Source: a virus
Virus record (IMG/VR): IMGVR_UViG_3300020428_000051
Span: 1-32,158 of that record
Length of the DNA stretch: 32,158 bases
Reading direction: 5' to 3' (one strand)
The position numbers and the translations under genes are program-made. The notes beneath the pieces are model-generated. The model ran no database searches. It was given only the letters and a program-made list of their open reading frames with translations, and was not told the DNA's origin. Below, in pieces: positions 602-24,614 of this stretch (positions are counted from its first letter, which is position 1; every line of letters starts with the position of its first letter).

Positions 602-1022
602 CTTGTTCTACGTCTATAACCTTCTGTTCATCACGCAATGCTTTAAGTATTTCTGTGGTTGTTCCAGCAAATACGACATTGTTCTGAGTAGTTATCTTCT
701 TCTCAGTTCCATTATTAGTATCCAGTTTTTGTTTTTGTACTTGGACATCCATGACATCTTTAGCCTGTTCGCCCATTGTTTTTATAATCTGGCCAGCAAC
801 TTCGTATGCACGAGGGTTATCACTATTCATCGCAACATTCAGTATACCCTCAGCTGCTTGCTCACTATAGTTCATTGCTTTCTCTAATGTATCTCGTGCC
901 TTCTGAAAGTCATCTTCAACATTATTTTCGCTACGGACTGCTGGGGGGTTCACCTTCTTTGTCTCAGTCATTTGAGTTTGAAAGGTTTTATCTAGTGCAT
1001 CAAATACTTTATTGCGGTTCAT
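594..1022 (-). CDS. 16: Terminase small subunit gp16
   Basis: 142-aa small terminase, which recognises DNA and stimulates the gp17 ATPase during packaging. The sequence is charged and mainly helical. Residues about 38-90 look like the central helical oligomerisation region (EDDFQKARDTLEKAMNYSEQ and following). Residues 91-142 form a Lys/Asp/Glu-rich tail. Its place between gp15 and gp17 is the T4 position, and its length is close to the 164 aa of T4 gp16. Its ATG overlaps the gp15 stop as TAATG, and its own stop overlaps the gp17 start, so gp15, gp16 and gp17 form a tightly coupled run. The call rests mainly on context plus helical character. Confidence 0.85.
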   Translation of the reverse strand: MNRNKVFDALDKTFQTQMTETKKVNPPAVRSENNVEDDFQKARDTLEKAMNYSEQAAEGILNVAMNSDNPRAYEVAGQIIKTMGEQAKDVMDVQVQKQKLDTNNGTEKKITTQNNVVFAGTTTEILKALRDEQKVIDVEQDE

Positions 1023-2023
1023 TATGTGAAACTCTCTTCAAATTGTTCTATGAATCTGTGGGGGTCATCTGCATCTGGAGAAGCCTCATAGTTTGGCGGT
1101 TCTTCAAAAGTTATAGTCGGCGCTTCTGAATATCCACTACCAGCATCATCGATAGTTATTGCAGTTACCACCCCATCTGTCAAAGTAGCACTAGCCCTCG
1201 CGTTCCCCGACAAAGTTATATTCGGGGGAGAAGTATACCCAGCGCCACCATAAGTTACTGTGAATCCTGTAACAGAACCACCACCAATCGTGGCAGTAGC
1301 TGTTGGTAAAGTTCCCGCCACTGTGAATGTTTGTGTAATCCTCGGCCCAGTTGGGTCTGTGCCTGTATTTTCAAACAACTGTGCGACTGACTTCTTAATA
1401 AATCCTTGTGTAGCCACGTTACCATAGTAGTGAAGTTTCATTGTAAAATTTAAAGACCAAATGATACTCCTACGAGAAGCGAAATCACCCTCATAGTTAT
1501 CCTCAAAAGTTACAGAGTCCATGACTATCTTGATATCTCTTTTGATGCCCAATTCTGGCAAATCATTGATAGTAACACTGAAGTCTGGATTGAAGTATGG
1601 CATTATTTGTTCTACCACTTGCAACGCATCTTCTTGATTCTTTGCAAACACATACAAAGATACTTGCATGTCGTATGGCGTAGACACAAATGTTTTACTA
1701 AAATTATTCTGGCCGTCAGATGTTGCACTGACATTTTTTTGAACAGGTGACAGTTTTCTACTAGGGTCAAAGTTGAGTCCAGTGATTTCAAATCCCATAC
1801 GAGGCAAACTGATAGCAACTTCACCACGGCTGTCCGTATCTGGAACAGCAGCAATTCTACTCAAGAATTTTTCTTTTGGCGAATACGCTAGTGGAACTCT
1901 AATAGTTTGTTGAGTCACACCAGCAGAATCTTTTCTTTCTATCTGTATATTATTAAAGATAGTACCAAAGACAATGATTGCCTTTTTAGTATGTTTGTGA
2001 TAAAAATATTGATTCTTAAACAT
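1022..2023 (-). CDS. 15: Tail completion and sheath stabiliser protein gp15, with C-terminal beta repeats
   Basis: 333 aa. In T4, gp15 (272 aa) forms the hexameric terminator at the head-proximal tail end and contacts the gp13/gp14 neck. Residues 1-215 are the gp15-like part, opening MFKNQYFYHKHTKKAIIVFG, with the tail-terminator-like stretch YDMQVSLYVFAKNQEDALQV at 117-136. Residues about 232-308 hold two copies of a beta repeat ending GGAGY and GSGY (GGAGYTSPPNITLSG and GSGYSEAPTITFEEP). The same repeat type occurs in gp8 and the gp7-like protein of this window and explains most of the extra length. The gene is coupled to gp14 upstream and gp16 downstream by TAATG overlaps. Confidence 0.88.
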   Translation of the reverse strand: MFKNQYFYHKHTKKAIIVFGTIFNNIQIERKDSAGVTQQTIRVPLAYSPKEKFLSRIAAVPDTDSRGEVAISLPRMGFEITGLNFDPSRKLSPVQKNVSATSDGQNNFSKTFVSTPYDMQVSLYVFAKNQEDALQVVEQIMPYFNPDFSVTINDLPELGIKRDIKIVMDSVTFEDNYEGDFASRRSIIWSLNFTMKLHYYGNVATQGFIKKSVAQLFENTGTDPTGPRITQTFTVAGTLPTATATIGGGSVTGFTVTYGGAGYTSPPNITLSGNARASATLTDGVVTAITIDDAGSGYSEAPTITFEEPPNYEASPDADDPHRFIEQFEESFT

Positions 2024-5214: not shown

Positions 5215-5550
5215 CTATGATTTTGTAACTTGAGGCGTAACCGTAACAATACCTTCTCTAACACGAATGACTTCTGGTGCATTTGCAATCTCCACATCAT
5301 ATACATATCTTCCAGACTTCAATGCTGTTGTCTGGGTTGCAGTAAGAGATATAGTAATAACACCAGTAGCATCAACTTGACTTGTAGTAAAATCGGTTGC
5401 GGTGCTACTGGCATAAGATTTTCTGATTTGTCCAGTTGTTGTGTACCCTGCTAGGTTTTTCACAGTGGAACCATCGGTGGTGACAGTGATGGTAGCACTG
5501 AATGTTGACCCTTGATCAACTACTAAATTCTTTACTGTTTTGACGGCCAT
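5215..5550 (-). CDS. Small beta-rich virion protein, possibly Ig-like or BppU-N-like
   Basis: 111 aa, with no charged helices or membrane segments. The layout, a Gly-Ser-Thr strand pattern opening VVDQGSTFSATITVTTDG, a middle GVITISLTATQTTALKSGRY and a closing VREGIVTVTPQVT, resembles the N-terminal beta domain of phage baseplate upper proteins and other small Ig-like virion decorations. I recognise the pattern but not a named family. It lies directly upstream of the coiled-coil fibre gene (9 nt gap) under its own late promoter, so the two are probably co-expressed late and may be partners. GAGGA lies a few nt upstream of the ATG. Confidence 0.6.
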   Translation of the reverse strand: MAVKTVKNLVVDQGSTFSATITVTTDGSTVKNLAGYTTTGQIRKSYASSTATDFTTSQVDATGVITISLTATQTTALKSGRYVYDVEIANAPEVIRVREGIVTVTPQVTKS

Positions 5551-5575: not shown

Positions 5576-5583
5576 TATTTATA
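5576..5583 (-). promoter_or_regulatory. T4-type late promoter for the 111-aa and fibre genes
   Basis: Exact TATAAATA on the minus strand followed by GTAT, 26 nt upstream of the ATG at 5550. It lies in the 49-nt divergent gap between the virion block and the plus-strand cargo island. It faces only the virion genes. Confidence 0.85.
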
Positions 5584-5599
5584 ATATGGGAGGATTAAC

Positions 5600-6340
5600 T
5601 TGAAAACCATAGTGACGCTCCTCTATGGAGACAAATATAATGCTGATGATGTTCACCGTATTTATCAAGACACAAAACAGTATAATCATGTATGTATAGT
5701 TGATGAGAAAAATGCAAAGTACCTAGATAAAAACATACACACATTGCCGGCCGGCGATGATGAAACTTTTGAAAAGATAAAAATATTCAAAAATAATTGG
5801 GTAGGGGATTGCCTTTACCTAGACCTTGATGTTATAATACAAGGGTCTATAGAAAAATTATTTTGTAAGAAACCAACGATATGTTATTGTTATTGGAAAC
5901 ACCCTGACCAAGTAACATACGGTGACCATAAATATAAGCTAGGCGAAAGATATGTAGACAATGGAAATCCTCTAGCACCTTGGACTTCAAAGTGGATTGG
6001 CATGTGGAACTCCAGTGTGATGTCTTGGAGTGGTAACAATGCTAGATATATATACGACCACTTTGAAATGAAAGACCAATTCTACATGACTAAATATGCT
6101 GGAGATGACAGGTTTTTATATCACGAAAATTTATTCAACAATGTATTCCCACGAGGTTTGATATATTCGTGGCAGTTTGGTGTTGATTTTGAAACTGATA
6201 AGTCCCCCAGAGCATACCAATGGAAACCAGATTATCCTCTGATACTTTTAAATAGTACGCATGAAACAAAAGAAGAGTTGAGACAAAAATATTATGATGC
6301 ATTTTCTTTGCATGAAATGGGGCAACAAGTACAGTCCTGA
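5600..6340 (+). CDS. GT-A-type glycosyltransferase-like protein, copy 1 of the plus-strand array
   Basis: 246 aa, starting at a TTG. The perfect Shine-Dalgarno sequence GGGAGGA at 5588-5594, 5 nt before the TTG, decides this start. The N-terminal strand MKTIVTLLYGDKYNADDVHR, then CLYLDLDVIIQG at 71-82 with a DxD motif at D75/D77, and later SSVMSWSG and YSWQFGVDFE, match the other array members. DxD normally binds the metal-nucleotide sugar in GT-A enzymes. It is the most diverged copy: it has YGDKY in place of KWGTKY and lacks the CYTDD motif. The 3' end overlaps the next gene by 47 nt in another frame. Acceptor and sugar are unknown; a transferase acting on virion or host surface glycans is inferred. 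Confidence 0.72.
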   Translation: MKTIVTLLYGDKYNADDVHRIYQDTKQYNHVCIVDEKNAKYLDKNIHTLPAGDDETFEKIKIFKNNWVGDCLYLDLDVIIQGSIEKLFCKKPTICYCYWKHPDQVTYGDHKYKLGERYVDNGNPLAPWTSKWIGMWNSSVMSWSGNNARYIYDHFEMKDQFYMTKYAGDDRFLYHENLFNNVFPRGLIYSWQFGVDFETDKSPRAYQWKPDYPLILLNSTHETKEELRQKYYDAFSLHEMGQQVQS

Positions 6341-9023
6341 TTATGTAAATAATCTATACAAGATGGTGAAAGAAAACTACAGTAAACGACACAAGTTTAT
6401 CTGTTATACTGATGACCCAGAAGGTATAGACAAGAACATAAAAATTAGAACAATTCCAAAGGTTGACTCTTTACACCCAGACTTTTGGTTTGGTAAGGAA
6501 AACTATTGTTGGGATAGGTCAAAATTTCTAGTATTAAATTCCCATCGATGGTTGAGAACCAAGGGGCCTTTCTGTTATCTTGACTTGGATGTGGTCATAC
6601 AAAATAATATTGATGACATCTTTGAACTAAGCAAAACCCCACATATGATATACACTCACTGGGAAGACCCATCTGTACTAAAAGACAGACGTTTTCAAGA
6701 TGTCCGTGGCACACTATACAACTCTAGTGTGATGTTGTGGTGTAACAATGAGGGCGAAAAAATATACAACGATGTCATTAAACACAAAGACGTTGTGTAT
6801 AAAACATTCTGGAAAGGCACAGACAATTATTATCCTTGGAGAGAATATCAAGTAGTAGGAGACAACTATTGGTCATTCTTACCAAAAGATTGGGTCTACT
6901 CTTACAACAGAGGGCAAGAGTTCCCCAATGATTTGACAGAACACCTGTACAGAGAGACAGCAAAGTTTTGTATATTCGACTCCCCCACTGGGAGACCGCA
7001 AACAAATTACAAGCCGCATGAAGTTCGTGACTATAATATCCTTGTACACTGGCATGGCAAAAATGACTTTGAACGTCTATGGATGCCCAAGTTCCCCGAC
7101 AATTTTTTTGATAAAAACAAACACACTGAGAGGATTGACACTCTAATAGAAAATGCTAATGAGTATGACTCATTCGTAAAACAAATCGAATCTAGACATA
7201 GAAAAACCATAGAGGAACTTGAGAACGATTTGATATCAATGCACAAAAAGTTCTTAGCGGACTTTCCCAAAGACCCTCTGTTGATAGAAGGCAATGAGTC
7301 TTTGTATTGGAACAAAGACATTGACGGTATCTACAATTTTTATAAAGACAGATTTGTCTATAAGATGCACAAAGTTGTTTTCAATGTACTAGTAGATAAA
7401 TTCTATACCGATTTACCAAAACTAAAACAAGATTGGGAAAAGTACAGTAACAAGTTTGATAGTATAAAAAACTGGTCTCAGTTTGATTCCATGACGGATG
7501 ATACACTAGAAAAAAACTACATCGACCAAAAAGTAATAAGCAAAATAAAATACATGGTGAACCAAAATGATTTGACATCTTTGGCTTCCCTGATGATAGA
7601 GTTGTTTCCAGAACTAGAAAAACAATTGCAAGGAAGTATATCAGAAATAAAAGAAAACATCCCAGAACTAGAAAAAGAAATATCAGACTTAACATTTATC
7701 AGACGTATAGAACCAGAACATAGAAAAACAATAAGAGAGATATATGATACTGGTGATATGATTTCTATGCACAAAAAATTTCTTGCAGATTTCCCAGAAG
7801 ATAAGATGTTACAAGATGGCGACCAAGCTTTATATTGGAATAAAAGTTTTGACGGTGTGTATGATTTCTACAAAGAAAGATATATCTCTAGACAACATAA
7901 GATTGTCTTTGACGAAGCAAAAAAATATGGGCCAGTGAGATACTTTTGGAATATAAACTACGGCAGAATTTTCGCATTGTATAGGAGACTGTGGCATAAG
8001 AACGAACTGCCACTAGTCAAAAAAGAATTCATGGAGAACGTAAAAAGATATGGCATCCAGAGATTGTTTTGGGATGCAGATAATTCTGACACACAAAAAC
8101 TGTACAAAAGATATTACATTGACAACCTAAAAGAATTGTTTTACAAACAAGATTATGAGGCCGTGTTTGAAAGATTGTATAACATCATGCCCAAGGATGA
8201 GTTGTTAAATATTTTAAAACAGGATAATATATCAGACGATGATACTCTTGTCAAATATTTTCAGATGCATGGTGAACAATACAGTGATATGTACAAGGGG
8301 TTGTATGAGGATGGTTCCCCAGATGGTGCCCTGATACAACTGAGTAGCACTACAAATGATACCGATGACCCCTACAATGACATATTCCTGACAGAATACG
8401 AACACAACTTATCATCAATCAAAAAAATATTTGATAGGTACAGGGTAAATTGGGTAACTTTAATGTGTGAGATATCTGACCCCACCAAGTCTGAACATTT
8501 TGAAAACATATGTAAGTATTTTAAAGACAACGGTGTCACTCTGACCGTTCAAACATACGATAAAACTTTTATGAAACCCAGCTGGATAGACAACATGGAG
8601 TATGTTGAACAACCAGAACTAACGGAAAATATGCCAGTAGTAAAAGAAACCATTGCTAGTGACATACCAGTGAACCTAGACACGTTGAGGATGTTCAAGA
8701 AAAGGGATGAAGTAAGAAGACCAAAACCAAAGTCAAAGGTTGCTGACCCTGTGTGGTGTGATGCGAGAAAGAGCGGATACTTCTATGTTAGTGCTGATTC
8801 GGGTGCGTATCCGTGTGCTTGGATTGCTAGGGATGTACTAGAAAACAAACTTTTACCATATCATCCCCTTGACTACGCATACAATAATCAGTATAATAAT
8901 TTGAAAAACTTCACTGTTGGTGAGGTTATATATAATAATGACTTTGAAAATATAAGTCAAAATCTGAAGAGAAGTCCTCTGTCTATTTGTAATAAGAAGT
9001 GCGGTGATTGTCATGCGAGTTAA
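6294..9023 (+). CDS. Glycosyltransferase-like / internal-repeat / SPASM-like fusion protein
   Basis: 909 aa. Residues 1-280 are a GT-A-like domain: KWGNKY at 8-13, CYTDD at 37-41, YLDLDVVIQ at 95-103 with D97xD99, and YSYNRGQEF. Residues about 300-640 are helical, with two long repeats and four copies of a W-N/D motif. Residues about 685-909 resemble the end of a radical-SAM barrel plus a SPASM-type domain: C822, C841 (SADSGAYPCAW), then CNKKCGDC at C899/C903/C906. No CX3CX2C precedes the barrel-like part, so radical-SAM chemistry is not expected. ATG 6294 or 6297 keeps the first beta strand seen in paralogues; ATG 6312 would lose it. An Fe-S or structural metal role for the cysteines is inference. 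Confidence 0.7.
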   Translation: MMHFLCMKWGNKYSPDYVNNLYKMVKENYSKRHKFICYTDDPEGIDKNIKIRTIPKVDSLHPDFWFGKENYCWDRSKFLVLNSHRWLRTKGPFCYLDLDVVIQNNIDDIFELSKTPHMIYTHWEDPSVLKDRRFQDVRGTLYNSSVMLWCNNEGEKIYNDVIKHKDVVYKTFWKGTDNYYPWREYQVVGDNYWSFLPKDWVYSYNRGQEFPNDLTEHLYRETAKFCIFDSPTGRPQTNYKPHEVRDYNILVHWHGKNDFERLWMPKFPDNFFDKNKHTERIDTLIENANEYDSFVKQIESRHRKTIEELENDLISMHKKFLADFPKDPLLIEGNESLYWNKDIDGIYNFYKDRFVYKMHKVVFNVLVDKFYTDLPKLKQDWEKYSNKFDSIKNWSQFDSMTDDTLEKNYIDQKVISKIKYMVNQNDLTSLASLMIELFPELEKQLQGSISEIKENIPELEKEISDLTFIRRIEPEHRKTIREIYDTGDMISMHKKFLADFPEDKMLQDGDQALYWNKSFDGVYDFYKERYISRQHKIVFDEAKKYGPVRYFWNINYGRIFALYRRLWHKNELPLVKKEFMENVKRYGIQRLFWDADNSDTQKLYKRYYIDNLKELFYKQDYEAVFERLYNIMPKDELLNILKQDNISDDDTLVKYFQMHGEQYSDMYKGLYEDGSPDGALIQLSSTTNDTDDPYNDIFLTEYEHNLSSIKKIFDRYRVNWVTLMCEISDPTKSEHFENICKYFKDNGVTLTVQTYDKTFMKPSWIDNMEYVEQPELTENMPVVKETIASDIPVNLDTLRMFKKRDEVRRPKPKSKVADPVWCDARKSGYFYVSADSGAYPCAWIARDVLENKLLPYHPLDYAYNNQYNNLKNFTVGEVIYNNDFENISQNLKRSPLSICNKKCGDCHAS
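7188..7383 (+). repeat. Internal repeat A1 of the 909-aa protein
   Basis: Encodes about 65 residues, opening ESRHRKTIEELENDLISMHK and including KKFLADFP, LYWNKDIDG and FYKDRF. It is matched by copy A2 about 525 nt downstream, with roughly half of the residues identical by eye. The most conserved block is ISMHKKFLADFP. Confidence 0.85.
7710..7905 (+). repeat. Internal repeat A2 of the 909-aa protein
   Basis: Second copy, opening EPEHRKTIREIYDTGDMISM, then HKKFLADFP, LYWNKSFDG and FYKERY. It aligns to A1 with one short indel. The nucleotide sequences have diverged more than the protein, so the duplication is not recent. Confidence 0.85.
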
Positions 9024-9816
9024 TGTGGTGTGCAGTAAGTGGGGAACTAAATACGGCCCGCATTTTGTTAATCGACTTTACAACATGTCGAAAAGAAATA
9101 TACCAGAGGATAAATTTGATTTTCATTTCTACTGTTATACTGACGATGATAAGGGACTTCTACCTGATATCAAAGTTATACCATTTCCAGACATCGATTC
9201 CATACATCCTAAGTATTGGTTCGGCCATGATGACTTTAAGTATGGCATGGCTAGATGTTGGGACAGACCTAAAACAATGGTCTTCAATACTCACAATTTT
9301 GCAGCAGATAAGCCGACAGGACGTTTCATCTTCTTTGATTTGGATATAATAATACAAAATGATTTGACTCCCATCATCACATACAACTTAGAACAACCCA
9401 CAAAAATGCGGTCATGGTGGCAAGACCCCAGACCCATGTTAAGTAGACAATTCAAACTAGCACACGGCGCACACACAAACGGTAGTTGTCAAGTGTGGAG
9501 TGATGACCAGTGTGAACCTATCTGGAATGACGTACTAGAACACCAAGAAAAGATATGGTTCACTTTCACAGACGGTACAGATAACTACCACTCTTGGAGA
9601 TGGAAAAAACTGTGGGATTACTTTCCAAGTTGGATGGCATATTCATACAACCGTGGAAGGTCATGGGCCGAGGATGATTTGCGTGTAGGGATTTACAGAG
9701 AAAATTGCATCATCTGTGTATTTAACGTAGACCTTTTGCCTTTTGAGGACAAGAGTAGAGGTCACACAAAACAAGATGACCTTGCTGACCCAAGGTTACT
9801 GGAGCATTGGCGATGA
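9013..9816 (+). CDS. GT-A-type glycosyltransferase-like protein, copy 3 of the array
   Basis: 267 aa from ATG 9013, with GGTGA at 9003-9007 as ribosome binding site. A GTG at 9004 in the same frame is less likely. Family motifs: VNVVCSKWGTKYGPHFVNRL at 3-22, YCYTDD at 40-45, FFDLDIIIQND at 107-117 with D109xD111, WSDDQCEPIWNDV, and AYSYNRGRSW near the C-terminus. It resembles the N-terminal domain of the 909-aa protein closely in length and motif order, including HPKYWFG against HPDFWFG. It overlaps that gene by 11 nt, and its stop overlaps the miniprotein start as ATGA. GT-A fold and DxD suggest a nucleotide-sugar transferase; the substrate is not readable. Confidence 0.75.
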   Translation: MRVNVVCSKWGTKYGPHFVNRLYNMSKRNIPEDKFDFHFYCYTDDDKGLLPDIKVIPFPDIDSIHPKYWFGHDDFKYGMARCWDRPKTMVFNTHNFAADKPTGRFIFFDLDIIIQNDLTPIITYNLEQPTKMRSWWQDPRPMLSRQFKLAHGAHTNGSCQVWSDDQCEPIWNDVLEHQEKIWFTFTDGTDNYHSWRWKKLWDYFPSWMAYSYNRGRSWAEDDLRVGIYRENCIICVFNVDLLPFEDKSRGHTKQDDLADPRLLEHWR

Positions 9817-9980
9817 CTAATTTAAAAAAGTGGTGGAGAATATGGGCAAAATCTTTGGGAGAAAAAGCTTCCGATGATTCTAATGAAGCAGATTTGGTTG
9901 CGATATTTAGAACCATCGTAGTTCTTGTTAATTTCTTTACTTGTTTCTTTATCATATCTGGGGTTTTAAGACATTGGTAA
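9813..9980 (+). CDS. 55-aa membrane miniprotein between glycosyltransferase genes
   Basis: ATG at 9813, TAA at 9978-9980. The N-terminal half is polar and basic/Trp-rich (MTNLKKWWRIWAKSLGEKAS), then DDSNEADLVA. A hydrophobic stretch follows, about residues 29-52 (from LVAIFRTIVVLVNFF through CFFIISGVL), ending RHW. A single-pass membrane or membrane-surface protein is likely, with the basic/Trp segment on one side. It fills the gap between two glycosyltransferase genes exactly: its ATG overlaps the upstream stop (ATGA), and its stop overlaps the TTG start of the next gene (TTGGTAA). That fit supports a real gene despite its size. It could anchor the transferases at the membrane, but this is inference. 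I have a vague memory of similar small proteins in marine T4-like phages. Confidence 0.72.
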   Translation: MTNLKKWWRIWAKSLGEKASDDSNEADLVAIFRTIVVLVNFFTCFFIISGVLRHW

Positions 9981-10651
9981 ATATATACACCGTAAAGTGG
10001 GGAACAAAATACAACCACAAACATGTCCAACAAATCTATGAATCATGTTTGGAAAACTTGACCGTAGACTTTACATTTCACTGTCTAACTGATGATGCAA
10101 CCGACATATCTTCGGACATAAAAATCATATCTTTGCCAGGCGGAAACAAACTAGAGAAGTGGTGGAACAAGATGTATTTGTTCAATGATGATATTGTAAC
10201 CCAAAAGGGCGAAAAGATGTTCTTTGATTTGGATGTCATCATACAAAAAAATGTAGATGTGATTGCTAACTATGACCCAGAAGATAATCTGTGTCTAGTA
10301 AAAACTTGGTGGCATGATTTAGAAACACAATACAAAGAGACAAGACACATACCTCATAAATTTACTGACCTCAATTCGTCAGTGTTGAGGTGGAATGATG
10401 ACCTAAATACTAGAGAGCTTACAGAATATTTTAATAAATATCAAAAACAAATATTATGGTATTATCGTGGCCTCGACAATTTCTTTTACAATAGAAGAGT
10501 TATCAAAACAAAACTGTTCCCACTTGGATGGGTTTACAGTTTCAATCAAGGGTTTGTTTTTCCGCATGACATAGAAAAACACACCTATAGAGAACTACCA
10601 TACGTTTGTATTTTTGATTCAATGGGAAAAGGTGAAGATGTTAAATTTTAA
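9974..10651 (+). CDS. GT-A-type glycosyltransferase-like protein, copy 4 of the array
   Basis: 225 aa from a TTG at 9974 that overlaps the miniprotein stop. Earlier in-frame starts at and after 9941 would add residues unlike the paralogues, whereas LVNIYTVKWGTKYNHKHVQQ aligns at once with the other copies. Motifs: HCLTDD at 36-41, FFDLDVIIQKN at 83-93 with D85xD87, LNSSVLRWNDD, and VYSFNQGFVFP near the C-terminus. It is shorter than copy 3, mainly from loss of the HPKYWFG-type insertion. The start relies on coupling: the only upstream purine run is GGGG within ATCTGGGGTTTT. A nucleotide-sugar transferase of unknown substrate. Confidence 0.72.
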   Translation: MVNIYTVKWGTKYNHKHVQQIYESCLENLTVDFTFHCLTDDATDISSDIKIISLPGGNKLEKWWNKMYLFNDDIVTQKGEKMFFDLDVIIQKNVDVIANYDPEDNLCLVKTWWHDLETQYKETRHIPHKFTDLNSSVLRWNDDLNTRELTEYFNKYQKQILWYYRGLDNFFYNRRVIKTKLFPLGWVYSFNQGFVFPHDIEKHTYRELPYVCIFDSMGKGEDVKF

Positions 10652-11321
10652 TTTTTTAAATAATTTTAAGCACTGGGGCGAAGCACTACATGTTATCGAA
10701 AACAAGATGCCTCATAAACTTGCAGACTTCCGAAAGTCTATGGAAGAAAATAACATGGAGGCAAGTATCTGGTGCGTAGAGGAAACGAAAAAATATATTG
10801 AAGAGTATTACACCAAAACAGGTTCCCTGAGAGTGCTGATATTGAACTCGTGGTTGGGTGTTCCCCTAGTTCCGCTACTGTGTGAAAACATGGATGTGGC
10901 TCAAATTCACATGGTGGATATCGATGAAGAGTCTATTGAACTCTCTAAGATTTTCCATAAACATTATGCACAAGAAAAGTTCGTAAACATTCGACACTGG
11001 AATCTGGATGTCCCATTTGAGTTTGAGAATCTAAACAAAATTGACGTAGACCTTGTTATCTGTCTCTGTACAGAACAACTGTATCCTCTGGCAGAACTCA
11101 ACGGCAAGAATCCACAGGCGATATACGCCATTCAAAACTCAAATGTAGTAGAAGAAATGTTTGGTATCAACTGTGTTGGTAGTATTGAAGACTTAAAGAA
11201 ACAAGTCAACATAGAAGAATGTGGATACGAGGGAATCAAGAAACAAACATATTATTCTTGGGACGGCAAAAAGGAATATGATAGATTTATGATTATAGGA
11301 CAAAGAGAAGGATTCTTCTAG
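10638..11321 (+). CDS. Class I methyltransferase-like protein with an atypical motif I
   Basis: 227 aa. ATG 10638 is chosen over an in-frame TTG at 10614 because AAAGGTGA lies just upstream of the ATG. Residues 64-81 (LRVLILNSWLGVPLVPLL) sit where SAM-dependent enzymes have motif I, but the loop reads NSWLG in place of DxGxG. IHMVDIDEESIELSKIF at 90-106 is a typical motif II-like strand with the ribose-binding acidic residue (D94 or D96). WNLDV at 121-125 and VDLVICLC at 137-144 fit later strands. Fold assignment is moderate; activity is uncertain given the altered loop. It overlaps the preceding transferase by 14 nt and ends at a CTAG shared with the convergent gene. Confidence 0.55.
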   Translation: MLNFNFLNNFKHWGEALHVIENKMPHKLADFRKSMEENNMEASIWCVEETKKYIEEYYTKTGSLRVLILNSWLGVPLVPLLCENMDVAQIHMVDIDEESIELSKIFHKHYAQEKFVNIRHWNLDVPFEFENLNKIDVDLVICLCTEQLYPLAELNGKNPQAIYAIQNSNVVEEMFGINCVGSIEDLKKQVNIEECGYEGIKKQTYYSWDGKKEYDRFMIIGQREGFF

Positions 11322-11935
11322 GGTGCAAAGACTACGTTGCCTGATGCTGTAATTCTACACTCATTAGAAGTATAGAATGGATACACTATGTGCGGCAATT
11401 TAGCATCAAACAAAACCATCTTACCAATAAAACTCTCATCAACATCTAAAGTTATTTCTTCTGGGCCGGCAAGAGGTTCATTAAATACAAATCCAAGTCT
11501 AGAAGTTTTCTTATCTGGTGTGTCTGGAAAAACTTTATCTTCTTCGGATAAGTCGTATGGTATCTGAATGAATACCACAAAAGAAAACAATCCTCCATGT
11601 CTATGGAGAGGATTGAATTCATGTTTCTTCATATGATTCACCCATGTTGTTTCAAGTTTGATGGGTGGTATGGGATTTAAAGTATCTTTGTATTTACTAA
11701 CGTACTCTGTGACTTCTGGTTTCTTAAAGTTTTTCATTAAGTCATCACGAATGGTGACAGGCAAATTCTCTATTTTTATTTGTTTCTGAAGATGTCCAGC
11801 TAGATTCTCGTTGTTGGATAAAGTTCCAACATAATCTTTGTAGAAGTTTACAGTATCCCAACTGACTTCGCCAGACCAGATACCATCATACTTCTGCAAT
11901 TGTTCTTCTGCCATAAACCAGTTTATTGAGAACAT
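11318..11935 (-). CDS. 2OG-Fe(II) oxygenase-like protein
   Basis: 205 aa. The start at 11935 is chosen because GGAGG lies 4 nt before this ATG; an in-frame ATG at 11959 would lack one. Residues 108-126 (NPLHRHGGLFSFVVFIQIP) and 171-200 (GKMVLFDAKLPHIVYPF through RITASGN) match the double-stranded beta-helix oxygenase family common in marine phages (2OG-FeII_Oxy_5 type). Probable iron ligands are H111 or H113 and H182; R194 would bind 2-oxoglutarate. Here the usual HxD is HxH. Substrate is unknown; hydroxylation of a protein, sugar or nucleotide is possible. It overlaps the upstream oxygenase-like gene by 13 nt and ends tail-to-tail with the methyltransferase-like gene. Confidence 0.72.
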   Translation of the reverse strand: MFSINWFMAEEQLQKYDGIWSGEVSWDTVNFYKDYVGTLSNNENLAGHLQKQIKIENLPVTIRDDLMKNFKKPEVTEYVSKYKDTLNPIPPIKLETTWVNHMKKHEFNPLHRHGGLFSFVVFIQIPYDLSEEDKVFPDTPDKKTSRLGFVFNEPLAGPEEITLDVDESFIGKMVLFDAKLPHIVYPFYTSNECRITASGNVVFAP

Positions 11936-12534
11936 ATATCCTCCACCATCATTTCCCACATCGCCTGATTCGGAGTCACGAATCCAATAGTTTCTCTCAC
12001 TCCCCTACTTCCAGCACAATGCCAATACGGATTGTCTGGCCCACCATAGTATCCAACTTTAGCTTGCCATCCAATATCATCATCAATTGTTTTTACTTTG
12101 CCATGTTCTAGATATCGGAAAAATCCCTGACCATCACTCCTAGTCAAAAGTATATTATAGCCTGGACAGTCCCAATTATTATGCCAAGACATAAATCCTC
12201 CAACTGGATACAAAACATGAACAGCTGTATACTTTGTGCCCAACCAATCGCCAAGTTCAGTTGACAACTCTAAAGATTTCGTTCTCAATTCGTCTGGTAT
12301 ACCATGAGTATTATGAAAGTCTGTTACCTTTGCATACTCTGGCGGGCCTTTGTGATTACTATCGTTGTACATCACAGAATGTAAATAGTCATCCCCACAA
12401 TAGTAATCTATATCGTGTTCGCCATGTCTTCTCTCATCTGTAACTAAAGAACCATAGTTCTGATTATCAAACCAATCAGTCCAATTATCCAACATACTAA
12501 TGAGCTCTGGATTTATTTTATCTATCGTTTGCAT
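11923..12534 (-). CDS. Second 2OG-Fe(II) oxygenase-like protein
   Basis: 203 aa from ATG 12534; an upstream in-frame ATG at 12609 would overlap the glycosyltransferase by 88 nt. The 13-nt overlap given by 12534 equals that of the next gene pair. Residues 114-131 (FMSWHNNWDCPGYNILLT) and 171-186 (WHCAGSRGVRETIGFV) look like the two halves of a cupin/double-stranded beta-helix iron site. H118 and H172 are likely ligands and R180 the 2-oxoglutarate anchor. The acidic ligand is not obvious (N120 or D122). It is not closely similar to the neighbouring oxygenase, so this is not a recent duplication. The family resembles phage oxygenases with WHxNxNAPGYN-type motifs, recalled from memory. Confidence 0.6.
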   Translation of the reverse strand: MQTIDKINPELISMLDNWTDWFDNQNYGSLVTDERRHGEHDIDYYCGDDYLHSVMYNDSNHKGPPEYAKVTDFHNTHGIPDELRTKSLELSTELGDWLGTKYTAVHVLYPVGGFMSWHNNWDCPGYNILLTRSDGQGFFRYLEHGKVKTIDDDIGWQAKVGYYGGPDNPYWHCAGSRGVRETIGFVTPNQAMWEMMVEDICSQ

Positions 12535-13214
12535 TTTATCGTATAGTGTGTTATAATAACATCCTGTCCATCCAACTCTTCTGGTTTTTGACCCAAACAA
12601 AAATTCCATCTAGCATCTGGACTTGGGAAGTCACCAACCTTGATGGTATCTTTATACTTCGTTTTGTTCAATAGATACCACATAGTGAATGTGTCCCAAG
12701 GTCTCACCCTTTCCGAATACGGAGATGGGTCATAACTGTCTGAAATTTGATATTGATACTGGTCAAACCAATCATCGAATAAGTCTTGAGTTTTTGACTT
12801 ACGATAAACAAAAACGCCACAATGATATATCATTTCTTCTGTATCGTTTAGTTTTGTTATCTTTGCATTGTAGGGACGATTGCGAGTGAAGATAATATCG
12901 TTGTCATTAAGGTAATCAAATGCGGTTGATATATCTTCATGTTGAATATAGGTGTCACAATCCAGATACATTGTTTTTTCATATGGAGAACGTGATAGAG
13001 CCCACAACTTAGTTCTTATGTGGTTTGGGCCATACGTTGCAATGTTTTCAAAGATTTCATAATCTTCTTTCTCTACCCATTCTGGTATGGTAAATAAAGT
13101 TATTCTTGCATCTGGATAAAATTCTTTGAGAGATATTGCTGAGGTTTTTGCAGCTTCATAGTATTCTTTTTTTACTGTGGCTACATAAAGATACCCACTA
13201 TCCAATATGTTCAT
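12522..13214 (-). CDS. GT-A glycosyltransferase, minus-strand copy
   Basis: 230 aa. N-terminal SGYLYVATVKKEYYEAAKTS starts a nucleotide-diphospho-sugar transferase fold. KLWALSRSPYEKTMYLDCDT at 69-88 carries the DxD (D85xD87), followed by YIQHED. GVFVYRKS and a C-terminal VIITHYTIKCKR complete a GT8-like layout. It shares only the general fold and YLDxDxYIQ pattern with the plus-strand array and lacks KWGTKY and CYTDD, so it is a separate lineage. Its ATG overlaps the upstream gene by 17 nt and its stop overlaps the next gene by 13 nt. It is probably expressed from the sigma70-type promoter at 13681-13710. Substrate unknown. Confidence 0.78.
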   Translation of the reverse strand: MNILDSGYLYVATVKKEYYEAAKTSAISLKEFYPDARITLFTIPEWVEKEDYEIFENIATYGPNHIRTKLWALSRSPYEKTMYLDCDTYIQHEDISTAFDYLNDNDIIFTRNRPYNAKITKLNDTEEMIYHCGVFVYRKSKTQDLFDDWFDQYQYQISDSYDPSPYSERVRPWDTFTMWYLLNKTKYKDTIKVGDFPSPDARWNFCLGQKPEELDGQDVIITHYTIKCKR

Positions 13215-13650
13215 TTGGATTAAATTCTTCTTGCAATATCATAGTCGAATAGGCCTGAACCTCTATGGGGGTTTTAGCTTTGCGAATACATTTTTTCAAT
13301 TCTTTGTTCTTAGAATTTTTTATTAATTCGATTTCAAAAGCTTCCAACTTCATTTCAAACAAGGTCTCTTGTTTCACTCTGTTGATGTGAACTTCTCTTG
13401 CCTCTTCTGCTTTCTTTTGGTTCTCTTCACCTTCTTTATCAAAGAGTTCAGTATTCTGATCAATCTCTTCTTCGGAGTAGAGTTCTAAAAGAGCATCATA
13501 GTCTTTATTGATTAGTCCCTCTGATGGATTGCCAACATTGATGTTGCATTGGTGGTATTTGTCGTTGACTAAAATCTCGCACCAAATACGGCGGTTCTCT
13601 TTGTCAACCCATCTGGGATTTTTATATTTGGGTAAGGTTTCTTCGCTCAT
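13198..13650 (-). CDS. Conserved-type small acidic phage protein, possibly fibre-associated
   Basis: 150 aa. An N-terminal Trp/Cys-containing segment (PKYKNPRWVDKENRRIWCEI) is followed by an acidic, strongly helical region (about 70-130) rich in Glu and Lys. The pattern PRWxDxENxxIxCE is familiar to me from small genes following tail-fibre genes in marine T4-like phages, and the position just after two fibre genes suggests a fibre-assembly or chaperone role. That is inference, not a domain match. GAGGA lies 7 nt before the ATG, and a perfect sigma70-type promoter lies about 30-60 nt upstream. It is the first gene of a coupled four-gene run that continues to the oxygenases. Confidence 0.55.
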   Translation of the reverse strand: MSEETLPKYKNPRWVDKENRRIWCEILVNDKYHQCNINVGNPSEGLINKDYDALLELYSEEEIDQNTELFDKEGEENQKKAEEAREVHINRVKQETLFEMKLEAFEIELIKNSKNKELKKCIRKAKTPIEVQAYSTMILQEEFNPNEHIG

Positions 13651-13680
13651 AATATATCCTCATAATTATTGCATAGGTCT

Positions 13681-13710
13681 ATTATAACCTACTTCACTGT
13701 CAAATGTCAA
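13681..13710 (-). promoter_or_regulatory. Consensus sigma70-type (early) promoter
   Basis: On the minus strand, TTGACA (13710-13705), an 18-nt spacer and TATAAT (13686-13681), both hexamers matching the consensus in every base. A second TTGACA overlaps the spacer (13703-13698). The start point would fall near 13675, giving a leader of about 25 nt with GAGGA before the 13650 ATG. It lies just after the stop of the 325-aa fibre gene and is the only consensus host-type promoter I found. Confidence 0.82.
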
Positions 13711-13713
13711 GGT

Positions 13714-14691
13714 TTAAACTGTTCTGATAAACAACTGTTTTGTCTCTTGAGTAGAACTTGATGACTGAATAGTATTACCAGCATAGTATCCAGTATATGT
13801 TCCAGAATAAGAACCAGTGTAGTTAGCGTTCAAGAATCCAGCAAAGAATCTTGAGTAACTACCAGAGTATGAACCAGTGTAATCTCCAGAATAGTTTACA
13901 CTAGCAACGTCTTTCAACTGGTCAGTCATTGTTGCGCCCATCTGAACCCATGTTCCAGCAGCACTGGGAGCACCAGTTTGTAACAAGTATTTTCCAACAC
14001 CACCAGCCATAATTCGATTTCTAAAAGCTGGTAACAGTGTTTGGATATTGGCAGCAGTCATCTCTGTGATACTACCAGTGTCAGTATCAACTTTTAAGAG
14101 AAGGTCTTCATTGGTTCCAGCATCAGTAGTAGGAGCAGTTTTTTGCCAAAGGTAATAATTTACATCTGTTCCATCTACCTGTGTTTCCGCGATGGTATAT
14201 CTAGATGTCCATGTTCCACCAGAGGGTGAAGAAGTTTCTATTTTATATTGACCTACAGTATTCGCGTCTTCAGCACACATTGCGGTTATACAAAGGTCAA
14301 GAACTTCCGTATCAACTTCTGTATCTGTCCCCTGTTCTACAGCTTCGCCCGTCCACCTGAGAGGATTTATTTGTCCACTCTCAGAAGCAGTGGCACTTAT
14401 CTGATTAAATCGATGAACTGTGTCAGTCGTTGTCTGTGTAACTGGGTGTTGACCCACAGTTTGATCGCTTTCTCTGTTAGTAAAAGTTCCAATTTCATCA
14501 CTACCAGCAGAACCACCTTGAACCACATTTAGTTCAGCAGTTCCAGAACCATCGGTGTTATCTGCAAAATGCTTAGTGATTACACCAGCAACTTGGTTTT
14601 TGATTTCAGCTGATGTCAGCTCAATGAAACCTTCCAAACCATCCGCAGCTGCTGGATACGCACCAGCTTTAAGTGTAATTGGCCCTGCCAT
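13714..14691 (-). CDS. Tail-fibre-type protein with Gly-Tyr repeat tip
   Basis: 325 aa. Residues 1-60 (MAGPITLKAGAYPAAADGLE, then LTSAEIKNQVAGVITKHFAD) look like a fibre attachment region. The middle is a beta-rich shaft with Gly/Thr/Asp. Residues 266-306 form a low-complexity run of YSG, YTG and GSYSGxYTG units, followed by a short Ser/Gln-rich end. Such Gly-Tyr tips are common in the distal fibres of marine T4-like phages and are candidates for receptor contact. It starts 9 nt after the previous fibre gene, and no TATAAATA lies immediately upstream, so it is probably expressed from the 15636 promoter. It might be a short- or long-fibre subunit; which one is unclear. Confidence 0.7.
   Translation of the reverse strand: MAGPITLKAGAYPAAADGLEGFIELTSAEIKNQVAGVITKHFADNTDGSGTAELNVVQGGSAGSDEIGTFTNRESDQTVGQHPVTQTTTDTVHRFNQISATASESGQINPLRWTGEAVEQGTDTEVDTEVLDLCITAMCAEDANTVGQYKIETSSPSGGTWTSRYTIAETQVDGTDVNYYLWQKTAPTTDAGTNEDLLLKVDTDTGSITEMTAANIQTLLPAFRNRIMAGGVGKYLLQTGAPSAAGTWVQMGATMTDQLKDVASVNYSGDYTGSYSGSYSRFFAGFLNANYTGSYSGTYTGYYAGNTIQSSSSTQETKQLFIRTV
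13774..13896 (-). repeat. YSG/YTG repeat tract in the fibre protein
   Basis: Codes for residues 266-306, with tripeptide-like units SGD, YTG, SYSG, NYTG, SYSG, TYTG, YYAG. The units are interrupted by RFFAGFLNA. Codon use varies between units, so the repeat is kept at protein level rather than as a recent DNA expansion. Confidence 0.85.
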
Positions 14692-23012: not shown

Positions 23013-24614
23013 CTAAAAAGTAAAAATCAACTTTACTGTTTCTACCTGATCCGAATCTCTCGTTATTGGTTTTCTATTATCATAGTAAAGTAATTCCCCA
23101 CTATGAGCATTAAATTCTGGATTTGTAAGGCTATTTATAGTCAATCCAGTTATGTCCTTTGTGGTATTTGTTAAAGTATCTGTTGAAGCTATATCCGAAT
23201 CCACTTCCTGTAAGTAAATCGAATCTATAGTTCCATTGCCAGTGGTGTCTCTTTTTTGAGTAACCCGATAAGTTCCGTTTGACGATGTAGTTATAGTATC
23301 ATCGGTGTCATATGATGCCGGTGATAGTGTTCCAATTACATGGTCACCCGAACCAGTGGCTTCATTAAATAAATCAGTTGAATTATATTTTGTTATATTT
23401 TTTAACAATCCAACTTGTCTATAATCATTTCCAGTTAGCAAGTCTCTAGAATCATTATCAAAAGATGTAGTTATACCCACCCTATGAGCAAATAATTCTT
23501 GTTGTACATTGGCACCATGTCCACTATAGGGGGCAATGATTGCTCGAAAAGCAGCATTACTTCCAGAACCAGTAGTTTGTTGAATGGATACCGTGGCTTT
23601 GGTGTAACCAGAGCCTGGCGTTGTTACTGTTATTGCAGTGACGTTTCCATTTGAATTGACTGTCAAGGAAGCACCAGCACCAGTTCCATCTCCTGTTATT
23701 ACAACACTGGCGTCCCCAGATGTATAATCGGCCCCCATGTTAGTTATAACAATATTATCTATAGCACCACCAACAGCGGTGCTTTCAACTGAAGTTTGTA
23801 ATGTTGCGGTCTCCGTACTTCCCAAAACCGCATCAGCAGTAGCAGCAGTAGAAAATCCTCCGCCGGTGAGTCTAATATCTGCAAAGGAGTAACCAGAACC
23901 AGCGGCCGTAATAGTTATTGCGGTGACGGCACCAGCAGCGATAGTTGCAGTCGCAGTAGCACCTGTGCCATCTCCCAATATTGAAACAGTGGGGGCACTA
24001 GTATATCCAGCGCCACCTGTCAAAACCGTTCCACTATCAATTTCACCATTAACATCGAACGCTGGGTCACCAGCACCAGAACTTACTCTAACTGGCATAT
24101 AACTATCTGATAAAAATTTTGTTCTATCAGCAGCACCCACTTGGAATAAAAACTTCCATTTATATCCATCACTGGTTTCAAAAATTTCTGTACCAGTGCT
24201 AGTAGGTTTTATCGTGCTTTGTGCATTACTATTATTGTTGATGCACTTGTAAACATTAAATCCGTCAGTTAAGACATAAAAGTTAGCGGTAGACAGCTTA
24301 GTAGCACCAGAGTTAGAGGTATTAGTTGCAGACAAGGAATCATCATACTTGTCATAAACTGTTCCACTCGCCCAATCAATCCTACGAGCAAGCATGGCTA
24401 CGTCTGCGTTCTGAACCTTCTTTACAAAAAGAATGTCCCTTCTGAACTCAGACGTAAACACACGATTGTCGTATGACGTATCTGGTGCGGTATCGTCAGT
24501 CCAAGTTTGAGTTCTAGAGGCCGCCAAGAAAAATCTATCATTATCGTTATAGATATCTCTGTAAAACGACCTCGCTTGTTGAACTCTGGCTTGGTCTCTT
24601 AAAAGAATTGCCAT
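23013..24614 (-). CDS. 8: Baseplate wedge protein gp8 with beta-repeat insertion
   Basis: 533 aa against 334 aa for T4 gp8. Residues 1-175 follow the gp8 pattern: [54 protein letters not shown], and [12 protein letters not shown] with YMPV at 172-175. T4 gp8 shows the matching DGYVWEYLFEI. Residues about 196-355 hold four GxGY/GADY beta repeats ([70 protein letters not shown]), which explain the extra length. Residues after 360 return to the gp8 core. AGGAG lies 6 nt before the ATG but is within a hairpin. Position between the gp7-like gene and the DUF4815 gene agrees with T4 order. Confidence 0.88.
23132..23139 (-). promoter_or_regulatory. T4-type late promoter inside the gp8 3' end
   Basis: Exact TATAAATA on the minus strand followed by GCCT, 129 nt before the ATG of the 2396-aa gene. 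It would give that gene its own late transcript in addition to read-through from gp8. Confidence 0.7.

Follow-up and report, generated by a model that had tools for sequence, protein, structure and literature searches.

An ordered cassette of glycosyltransferase and oxygenase genes next to the fibre genes of a marine T4-like phage

Introduction

In pelagimyophages and cyanomyophages, the interval between VrlC and the neck genes has been described as a host recognition cluster, a large, non-syntenic and hypervariable island that carries, besides fibres, several glycosyltransferases of the GT8 type, whose proposed role is to alter the O-chain of the host (PMC7029224). Here we analyze the corresponding interval of IMG/VR record IMGVR_UViG_3300020428_000051, a 32,158-base fragment of an uncultured virus, which is taken whole here and hereafter called the window. 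Its minus strand resembles the morphogenesis block of marine T4-like phages, and positions 5600-13650 contain a cassette of ten genes, designated A to J, for which an original prediction had proposed a role in glycan modification. The cassette lies between a VrlC-like protein and gp13-gp14, and both fibre genes and glycosyltransferases are present in the region. Since this is the position of the published cluster, and GT8 enzymes are already known there, the cassette can be regarded as a variant of a known region, and its earlier designation as an undescribed system was too strong. However, whereas the published island is non-syntenic, the cassette has an eight-gene core that is syntenic in the relatives sampled here, and this fixed arrangement, the glycosyltransferase paralogues, the domain fusion in B and the HxN motif of H are new details. 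We tentatively propose, at somewhat less than even probability, that the cassette is an assembly line for a phage-encoded oligosaccharide, most likely placed on the phage's own fibre protein S325, its putative acceptor.

The same interval in the Pelagibacter phage Mosig contains fibres, 2-oxoglutarate (2OG) oxygenases, a glycosyltransferase-like gene and MoaA-type genes, which belong to the radical S-adenosylmethionine (radical-SAM) family. Phage C48C1 (Kyanoviridae, OQ984149) has J, I and H in the same order beside a fibre-assembly gene and a repeat fibre, but A to F are missing at this site, and the one glycosyltransferase relative that queries with B and E found there is about 50 kb distant. 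Hydroxylation-dependent protein glycosylation, known from collagen, Skp1 and the hydroxyproline-rich proteins of plants, finds a parallel in the encoding of a prolyl-hydroxylase-like fold together with several glycosyltransferases, although H of the cassette has HxN in place of HxD. GtrABC-type O-antigen glucosylation differs in that, within this fragmentary record, no membrane flippase or membrane glycosyltransferase is seen among A, B, C, E and I. Glycosylation of mycobacteriophage virions (Freeman 2023, as cited in PMC12619734) shares the idea of glycans on a virion protein, here proposed, in phages of different hosts. DNA glucosylation by phage glycosyltransferases is mentioned in the same paper (PMC12619734), and 2OG oxygenases are described as abundant in cyanophages in another (PMC3037559). 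No description of the fixed cassette with its two odd enzymes was found in the open-licence literature, and none of the named phages searched has it, apart from J-I-H in C48C1.

Results

Gene content and conserved order of the cassette

The ten genes form a plus-strand block (A to F) followed by a minus-strand block (G to J), the separate strand arrangement noted in the original prediction, and adjacent genes overlap or abut in an operon-like manner. The cassette and its flanking features are as follows.

5600..6340, plus strand: A, GT8-like glycosyltransferase, TTG start, the most variable paralogue (assigned from Pfam, phrog, DxD and tree)
6294..9023, plus strand: B, glycosyltransferase (about residues 1-260), helical region with an internal duplication (about 300-660) and degenerate radical-SAM/SPASM-like fold (670-909)
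9013..9816, plus strand: C, glycosyltransferase, strongly conserved
9813..9980, plus strand: D, one-helix membrane miniprotein of 55 residues (phrog_1679), accessory, found in 65 loci before de-duplication
9977..10651, plus strand: E, glycosyltransferase, TTG start
10638..11321, plus strand: F, class I S-adenosylmethionine (AdoMet)-fold transferase, methyl- or aminopropyl-transferase-like
11318..11935, minus strand: G, 2OG-Fe(II) oxygenase (PF13759/phrog_81), accessory, at two sites within the cassettes of relatives
11923..12534, minus strand: H, prolyl-hydroxylase-like 2OG fold with HxN..H..R, likely start at Met26 of a 228-residue open reading frame
12522..13214, minus strand: I, second-type glycosyltransferase (GT8/GT2-like), shared with phage C48C1
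13198..13650, minus strand: J, conserved protein of 150 residues with no assigned function, heading the minus-strand operon, shared with C48C1
13681..13710, minus strand: sigma-70 promoter TTGACA-N18-TATAAT upstream of J
13714..14691, minus strand: S325, fibre-like, with tandem Y-[S/T]-G repeats, proposed acceptor
5215..5550, minus strand: fibre-assembly-like protein at the cassette border, with its own TATAAATA late promoter at 5576-5583

The gene content and coordinates first proposed hold, except that several start codons were misplaced (C at 9013, F at 10638, G near 11935, H near 12534) and that J is a tenth gene, unlisted before. The roughly 8 kb of non-virion genes placed between the fibres and gp13 are indeed there, but they sit between two blocks of fibre genes.

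Relatives were sampled as the best 80 of 382 loci retrieved with C, 80 of 144 with gp14, 80 of 378 with H, 80 of 394 with F and 80 of at least 489 with I; these are the closest relatives of each query, with contigs that recur across seeds, and they allow no inference on remote phages. Among 29 loci containing both border genes, A, B, C, E, F, H, I and J occur in the same order and orientation in 28 (18 when non-redundant, or 20 with the window and C48C1), in all of which C is present by construction, as they were fetched with it; the twenty-ninth is C48C1. Neighbour tests from four seeds, in which the same contig may count under several seeds, were satisfied in 436 of 446 cases (C-B 49/49, C-E 47/47, F-E 56/56, F-H 56/59, H-F 59/60, H-I 52/55, I-H 62/65 and I-J 55/55), and all ten misses trace to three contigs where H has been turned around at its own site and so reads with the plus-strand operon. 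The genes thus co-occur as a unit, as the original prediction had asked of them, and this synteny excludes variable cargo. The notion of an inserted cargo island with variable gene content is accordingly not supported for the core, which is fixed in the sampled relatives; only the accessory slots vary. The slots in question are C/E, E/F, F/H and H/I, and the genes found in them encode a cytidylyltransferase, methyltransferases (FkbM among them), a desaturase, an alternative oxidase or a DUF6071 protein. G has two locations: in 37 loci, counted before de-duplication, it is a plus-strand gene flanked by D and E, and in 10 it follows F on the minus strand. Locus L028 has a full alternative oxidase (13408-13986; PF01786, E 2e-72) between G and H, and locus L013 a fatty-acid desaturase between E and F.

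The loci fetched with gp14 include 37 that extend 5 kb or more on the fibre side; 28 of these have cassette genes and nine have none, some of the nine perhaps ending too early. In one gp14 relative (65%; L136:133-8791) the fibre genes run directly to gp13, with no cassette within 10 kb, and this locus possibly represents a cassette-free sister lineage. No DNA-level relatives were found in the phage collection, and tblastn against 50,697 phage records returned no homologue of C (E 1e-5) or F (E 0.01). An origin from host genes was considered and rejected: a contig scan of genomes with C gave three loci. Two are close (74-75%); these, L166 and L167 (the latter also with H), lie in public metagenome-assembled genome (MAG) bins that carry the labels Flavobacteriales and Bifidobacterium breve, and are probably phage contamination there. 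The third is a 27% match.

Four paralogous glycosyltransferases and a fifth of a second type

The five transferase-like proteins of the original prediction correspond to A, B, C, E and I, as borne out by phrog and GT8 matches, by the identity of C to B and E, and by a DxD motif in all five families. A matches Pfam GT8 (E 8e-4) and the phrog_1962 'glycosyltransferase' family (9e-9), which is also matched by E (3e-10) and B (0.002), while I matches GT8 at 0.006, as do 10 of 16 members of its family at E values up to 0.1. The GT8 matches of window A and I fall below the curated cut-off, and window B, C and E are unmatched by that model; C has no library match, yet it shares 38% identity with B and 32% with E. 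The DxD motif is conserved in A, C and E (19 sequences each) and in I (20), and in B the first aspartate is present in 21/21 and the second in 19/21 sequences of a set that includes two C-terminal-only proteins. Sequence comparison groups A, B, C and E as related glycosyltransferases and sets I apart as a second type. A single weak match to a defence-system model (E, 0.007) was taken as noise.

A tree of 96 transferase domains recovers a separate clade for each of A, B, C and E, with support of 1.0 for B plus C and of 0.87 for A plus E, and a printed support of 0.09 at the node joining all four. On this phylogenetic evidence, they are old tandem paralogues, each retained as a separate orthologue with its DxD motif. 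Mean tree distances are 0.29 for C, 0.78 for E, 0.95 for I, 0.97 for B and 1.38 for A, in loci that were fetched with C and are hence biased towards it. In a set without that bias, 15 gp14-fetched rows with a true C orthologue (eight of 23 rows having been dropped as paralogue cross-matches at 36-38%, and several of the 15 being mutually close), the identity of C to its window counterpart is 75-86%, higher than that of gp14 in 15/15 and of gp13 in 14/15 rows. The idea that C is the slowest protein of all was discarded, because in gp14-fetched rows it exceeds E in only 9/14 (with one tie) and F in 8/12. Across the core genes, identity to the window ranges from about 35% (A) to 87% (C). In the pairs tested, the ratio of nonsynonymous to synonymous substitution rates (dN/dS) amounts to roughly 0.17 (A), 0.03 (E), 0.05 (G), 0.18 (H) and 0.11 (both I and J), with dS saturated for B, C and F.

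Among the remaining proteins, F belongs to a family with weak but repeated matches to Spermine_synth (13/16 members) and Methyltransf_12 (5/16). Because the match of the window protein does not reach the curated cut-off, and those of the other members come without listed scores, we label F an AdoMet-fold transferase; the methyltransferase-like protein proposed earlier is recovered as to fold. G and H account for the two predicted 2OG oxygenases, G through PF13759 (33.9 bits against a cut-off of 27) and also phrog_81, H through its predicted fold. The predicted membrane miniprotein is D, with its phrog_1679 match and one hydrophobic segment; no such segment is present in A, B, C, E or I, and only D and, marginally, F have one. 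Sequence profile searches of the PDB with B, C, F, H and J gave no convincing match.

Two unusual enzymes: B and H

The C-terminal 240 residues of B match the folds of the radical-SAM/SPASM enzymes PqqE (Z 12.2, root-mean-square deviation [rmsd] 3.3, 139 residues aligned), SuiB (Z 12.2, 144 aligned) and BtrN (Z 11.2, 147 aligned). The model of B is poor overall (predicted local distance difference test [pLDDT] 51), and the part interpreted is confined to residues 670-885, within which 775-827, 841-867 and 879 onwards also score below 50. Of eight B-type C-termini compared with Pfam SPASM, seven, all but that of the window, give sub-threshold matches. The radical-SAM motif CxxxCxxC is absent from all 57 distinct full-length B sequences (of 257 loci), none of which has a cysteine within the 45 residues that open the aligned domain, while the C-terminal C...CG.C is retained in 54/57. 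Since the former has been lost throughout and the latter, of the auxiliary cluster, is mostly kept, B looks like a radical-SAM relic with auxiliary-cluster cysteines, fused to a DxD-keeping transferase. B varies in length (907-912, 835, about 735 and 438-466 residues); loci L071 and L078 have its glycosyltransferase part alone, and L064 and L067 have a glycosyltransferase plus a separate protein of 499-501 residues bearing the B-type tail. Part of the loci behind these 57 B sequences, and behind the 49 H sequences considered below, were fetched by patterns containing part of the motif.

H has no sequence-library match, but its model is confident (pLDDT 88.9), and all 50 PDB neighbours listed are 2OG oxygenases, including halogenases of that fold. 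The neighbours 3dkq (Z 11.1, rmsd 3.4, 158 aligned) and the P. putida prolyl 4-hydroxylase (P4H; Z 10.7, rmsd 3.8, 154 aligned) place it with the double-stranded beta-helix proteins, and in its predicted structure H is prolyl-hydroxylase-like. Its iron site, located by motif and not by coordinates, departs from the HxD/E...H triad, with asparagine replacing aspartate: WHxN is found in 49/49 non-redundant H sequences, 35 of which come from loci retrieved by other queries, and His197 and Arg205 are invariant in 37 sequences. We know of no characterized enzyme with this HxN triad.

The fibre S325 and phage C48C1

S325 adjoins J and contains six Y[ST]G motifs, against 0.39 in shuffled sequence, being the sole protein among 27 in the window with at least three. 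Labelled S325 homologues are present in 15 of the 18 non-redundant relatives and carry 2-18 copies. In C48C1, J-I-H lies between a 3,347-residue fibre gene and the fibre-assembly gene; the end of this fibre resembles that of S325, and the surrounding open frame has 188 copies of a similar motif. The same fibre (L004:666-10709) has very many Tyr/Phe-x-Gly repeats and 97 N-x-S/T motifs, and weakly similar repeats were matched in Synechococcus and Pseudomonas phages. No tandem run was seen in the nine loci with no cassette in reach, nor in the Mosig interval. The proposition that the repeat implies the cassette was nevertheless rejected on the evidence of S-RIM2 and other phages. Given the similar repeats of S-RIM2, beside which no such enzymes are annotated, the association between repeat and cassette is suggestive and not specific.

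Expression signals

The window has six TATAAATA late promoters, all on the minus strand (2.3 expected; 5 of 100 shuffles reach six), and none of them serves any cassette gene. In relatives, ATAAATA is found within 110 bases upstream of the fibre-assembly gene in 34/34 distinct regions, of the 281-residue fibre-like gene (S281) in 20/20 and of gp13 in 20/40, compared with 1/173 for B, C, E, F, H and I pooled. Internal virion genes also lack it (gp15 0/34, S325 0/21 and the small terminase), and because genes inside virion operons are likewise devoid of late promoters, only first genes are informative on promoter class. Upstream of these, ATAAATA is present in 6/34 regions for A (1.4 expected) and 8/25 for J (1.9 expected). 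The lack of late promoters therefore stands for the cassette of the window, but their absence throughout the lineage is refuted for A and J.

Sigma-70-like sites occur in 6 of 25 distinct regions upstream of J, the window included (0.4 expected), and in 6 of 34 upstream of A (0.6 expected), the window not among them. The site before window J matches at 12/12 positions; a site of this quality appears anywhere in the window in 11 of 200 shuffles. On account of this putative promoter, the minus-strand operon of the window is probably early or constitutive, a class that is not uniform across the lineage.

Genomic setting

On the minus strand, the gene order runs from a 2396-residue VrlC/adsorption-type protein, whose listed relatives are 'virulence associated' or adsorption tail proteins, through the fibre-like S281 and S325 (281 and 325 residues), the ten-gene region, the fibre-assembly-like protein and a 477-residue fibre to gp13, gp14, gp15 and the small terminase. 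Judged by gp14, the closest named relatives have about 40% identity. A cyanophage identity was rejected, with psbA-family genes in 0/9, ribosomal S21 in 0/9 and CsgG in 1/9 records (eight long relatives, some incomplete, plus C48C1). Window gp14 matches only the N-terminal part of its family, phrog_460, whose C-terminal part is matched by the gp15 C-terminus and a baseplate protein (window 1022-2023 and 23013-24614); by these matches, the C-terminal domain seems to have moved between proteins.

Discussion

Under the fibre glycosylation reading, the cassette would probably build a short sugar chain. H, with G in some phages, would oxygenate acceptor residues or a sugar; I would add the first sugar, and C, B, E and A would then extend the chain by one sugar each, with the conserved C acting near the base and the variable A outermost, before F or an accessory methyltransferase caps it. 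The SPASM-like part of B may act as a scaffold or redox-sensitive module, and the finished chain would protect or retune the fibre. Several lines of evidence were counted in favour of this reading: the ordered unit, the monophyly of the paralogues, the conservation of C, the location of J-I-H by the C48C1 fibre, the repeats of S325, the lack of a membrane glycosyltransferase, the cytidylyltransferase and FkbM accessories, and dN values well below dS for A, E, G, H, I and J. Other observations weigh against it. C is not always the most conserved protein, since E is higher in 4/14 and F in 4/12 of the same rows. Loci L028 and L036 retain the cassette with just two Y[ST]G in the translated part, and similar repeats occur in S-RIM2 and other phages in which no H homologue was found, S-RIM2 having no glycosyltransferase or oxygenase annotated beside its repeat protein. 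Some accessory genes, such as the fatty-acid desaturase and the alternative oxidase, resemble host metabolism, and the minus-strand operon of the window has an early-type promoter, as opposed to the late ones of the fibre blocks. Lastly, H lacks the canonical aspartate ligand, as read from its sequence, and may thus not be a hydroxylase or may not be active.

The main rival is that, in the course of infection, the enzymes add sugars to the host lipopolysaccharide or another surface glycan, changing receptors and excluding competing phages. We consider it a real possibility, if one that we would not expect to prevail. It coincides with what has been proposed for the same position, modification of the host O-chain (PMC7029224), which counts against a fibre target. 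The sigma-70-like sites before J and A fit it as well, as does the accessory lipid gene of L013. Yet C is better conserved than gp14 and gp13 in nearly all of the rows compared, even though host surface glycans are usually variable; hydrophobic stretches are confined to D and, marginally, F; the prolyl-hydroxylase-like fold of H suggests a protein substrate; and J-I-H adjoins fibre genes in C48C1 also. The gene set fits the building of a glycan, as first suggested, which may be placed on the virion, the fibre or the host.

The accessory slots gain and lose seemingly unrelated genes, among them the alternative oxidase and the desaturase, as would be expected if the genes were hitch-hiking passengers of an accessory hotspot and shared no function; that eight core genes hold their order across such a broad range of identities, with dN below dS, and that G is found in only two places within the cassette, makes this explanation improbable. 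No more credit is due to a small diffusible or peptide-linked product of natural-product type, derived for instance from J or another small phage peptide. The combination of SPASM, AdoMet and 2OG domains is typical of pathways to modified peptides, and the end of B resembles PqqE and SuiB, but the radical-SAM motif is missing from every B sequence, no obvious precursor peptide was noticed, and J is 150 residues long and rich in Glu and Lys. A further reading is glycosylation of phage DNA against restriction, as in T4, since some hypermodified phage DNAs make use of successive glycosyltransferases and of 2OG oxygenases; the cassette is linked to fibre genes and not to replication genes in the loci seen, and we regard this as very improbable.

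A more specific evolutionary version of the fibre glycosylation reading can be put forward, although we hold it to be doubtful. The lineage would have evolved an ordered, oxygenation-dependent protein glycosylation pathway for one fibre stalk, starting from an ancestral J-I-H unit that paired an HxN oxygenase with a priming transferase. Four tandem-duplicated transferases would have been added later, one of them fused to a radical-SAM relic reduced to its auxiliary iron-sulfur site, which would serve as a new module for regulation or scaffolding.

The fusion of a glycosyltransferase to a pseudo-radical-SAM/SPASM domain and the invariant HxN oxygenase would be unusual enzymes, of interest in themselves. 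Glycosyltransferases of marine T4-like phages are known, and their target was not found in the literature searched. The fixed cassette, together with the presence of J-I-H beside a repeat fibre in a distant phage, provides a defined gene set, a candidate acceptor and a stepwise prediction, and the question of whether these enzymes act on the host surface or on the phage's own fibre therefore becomes testable.

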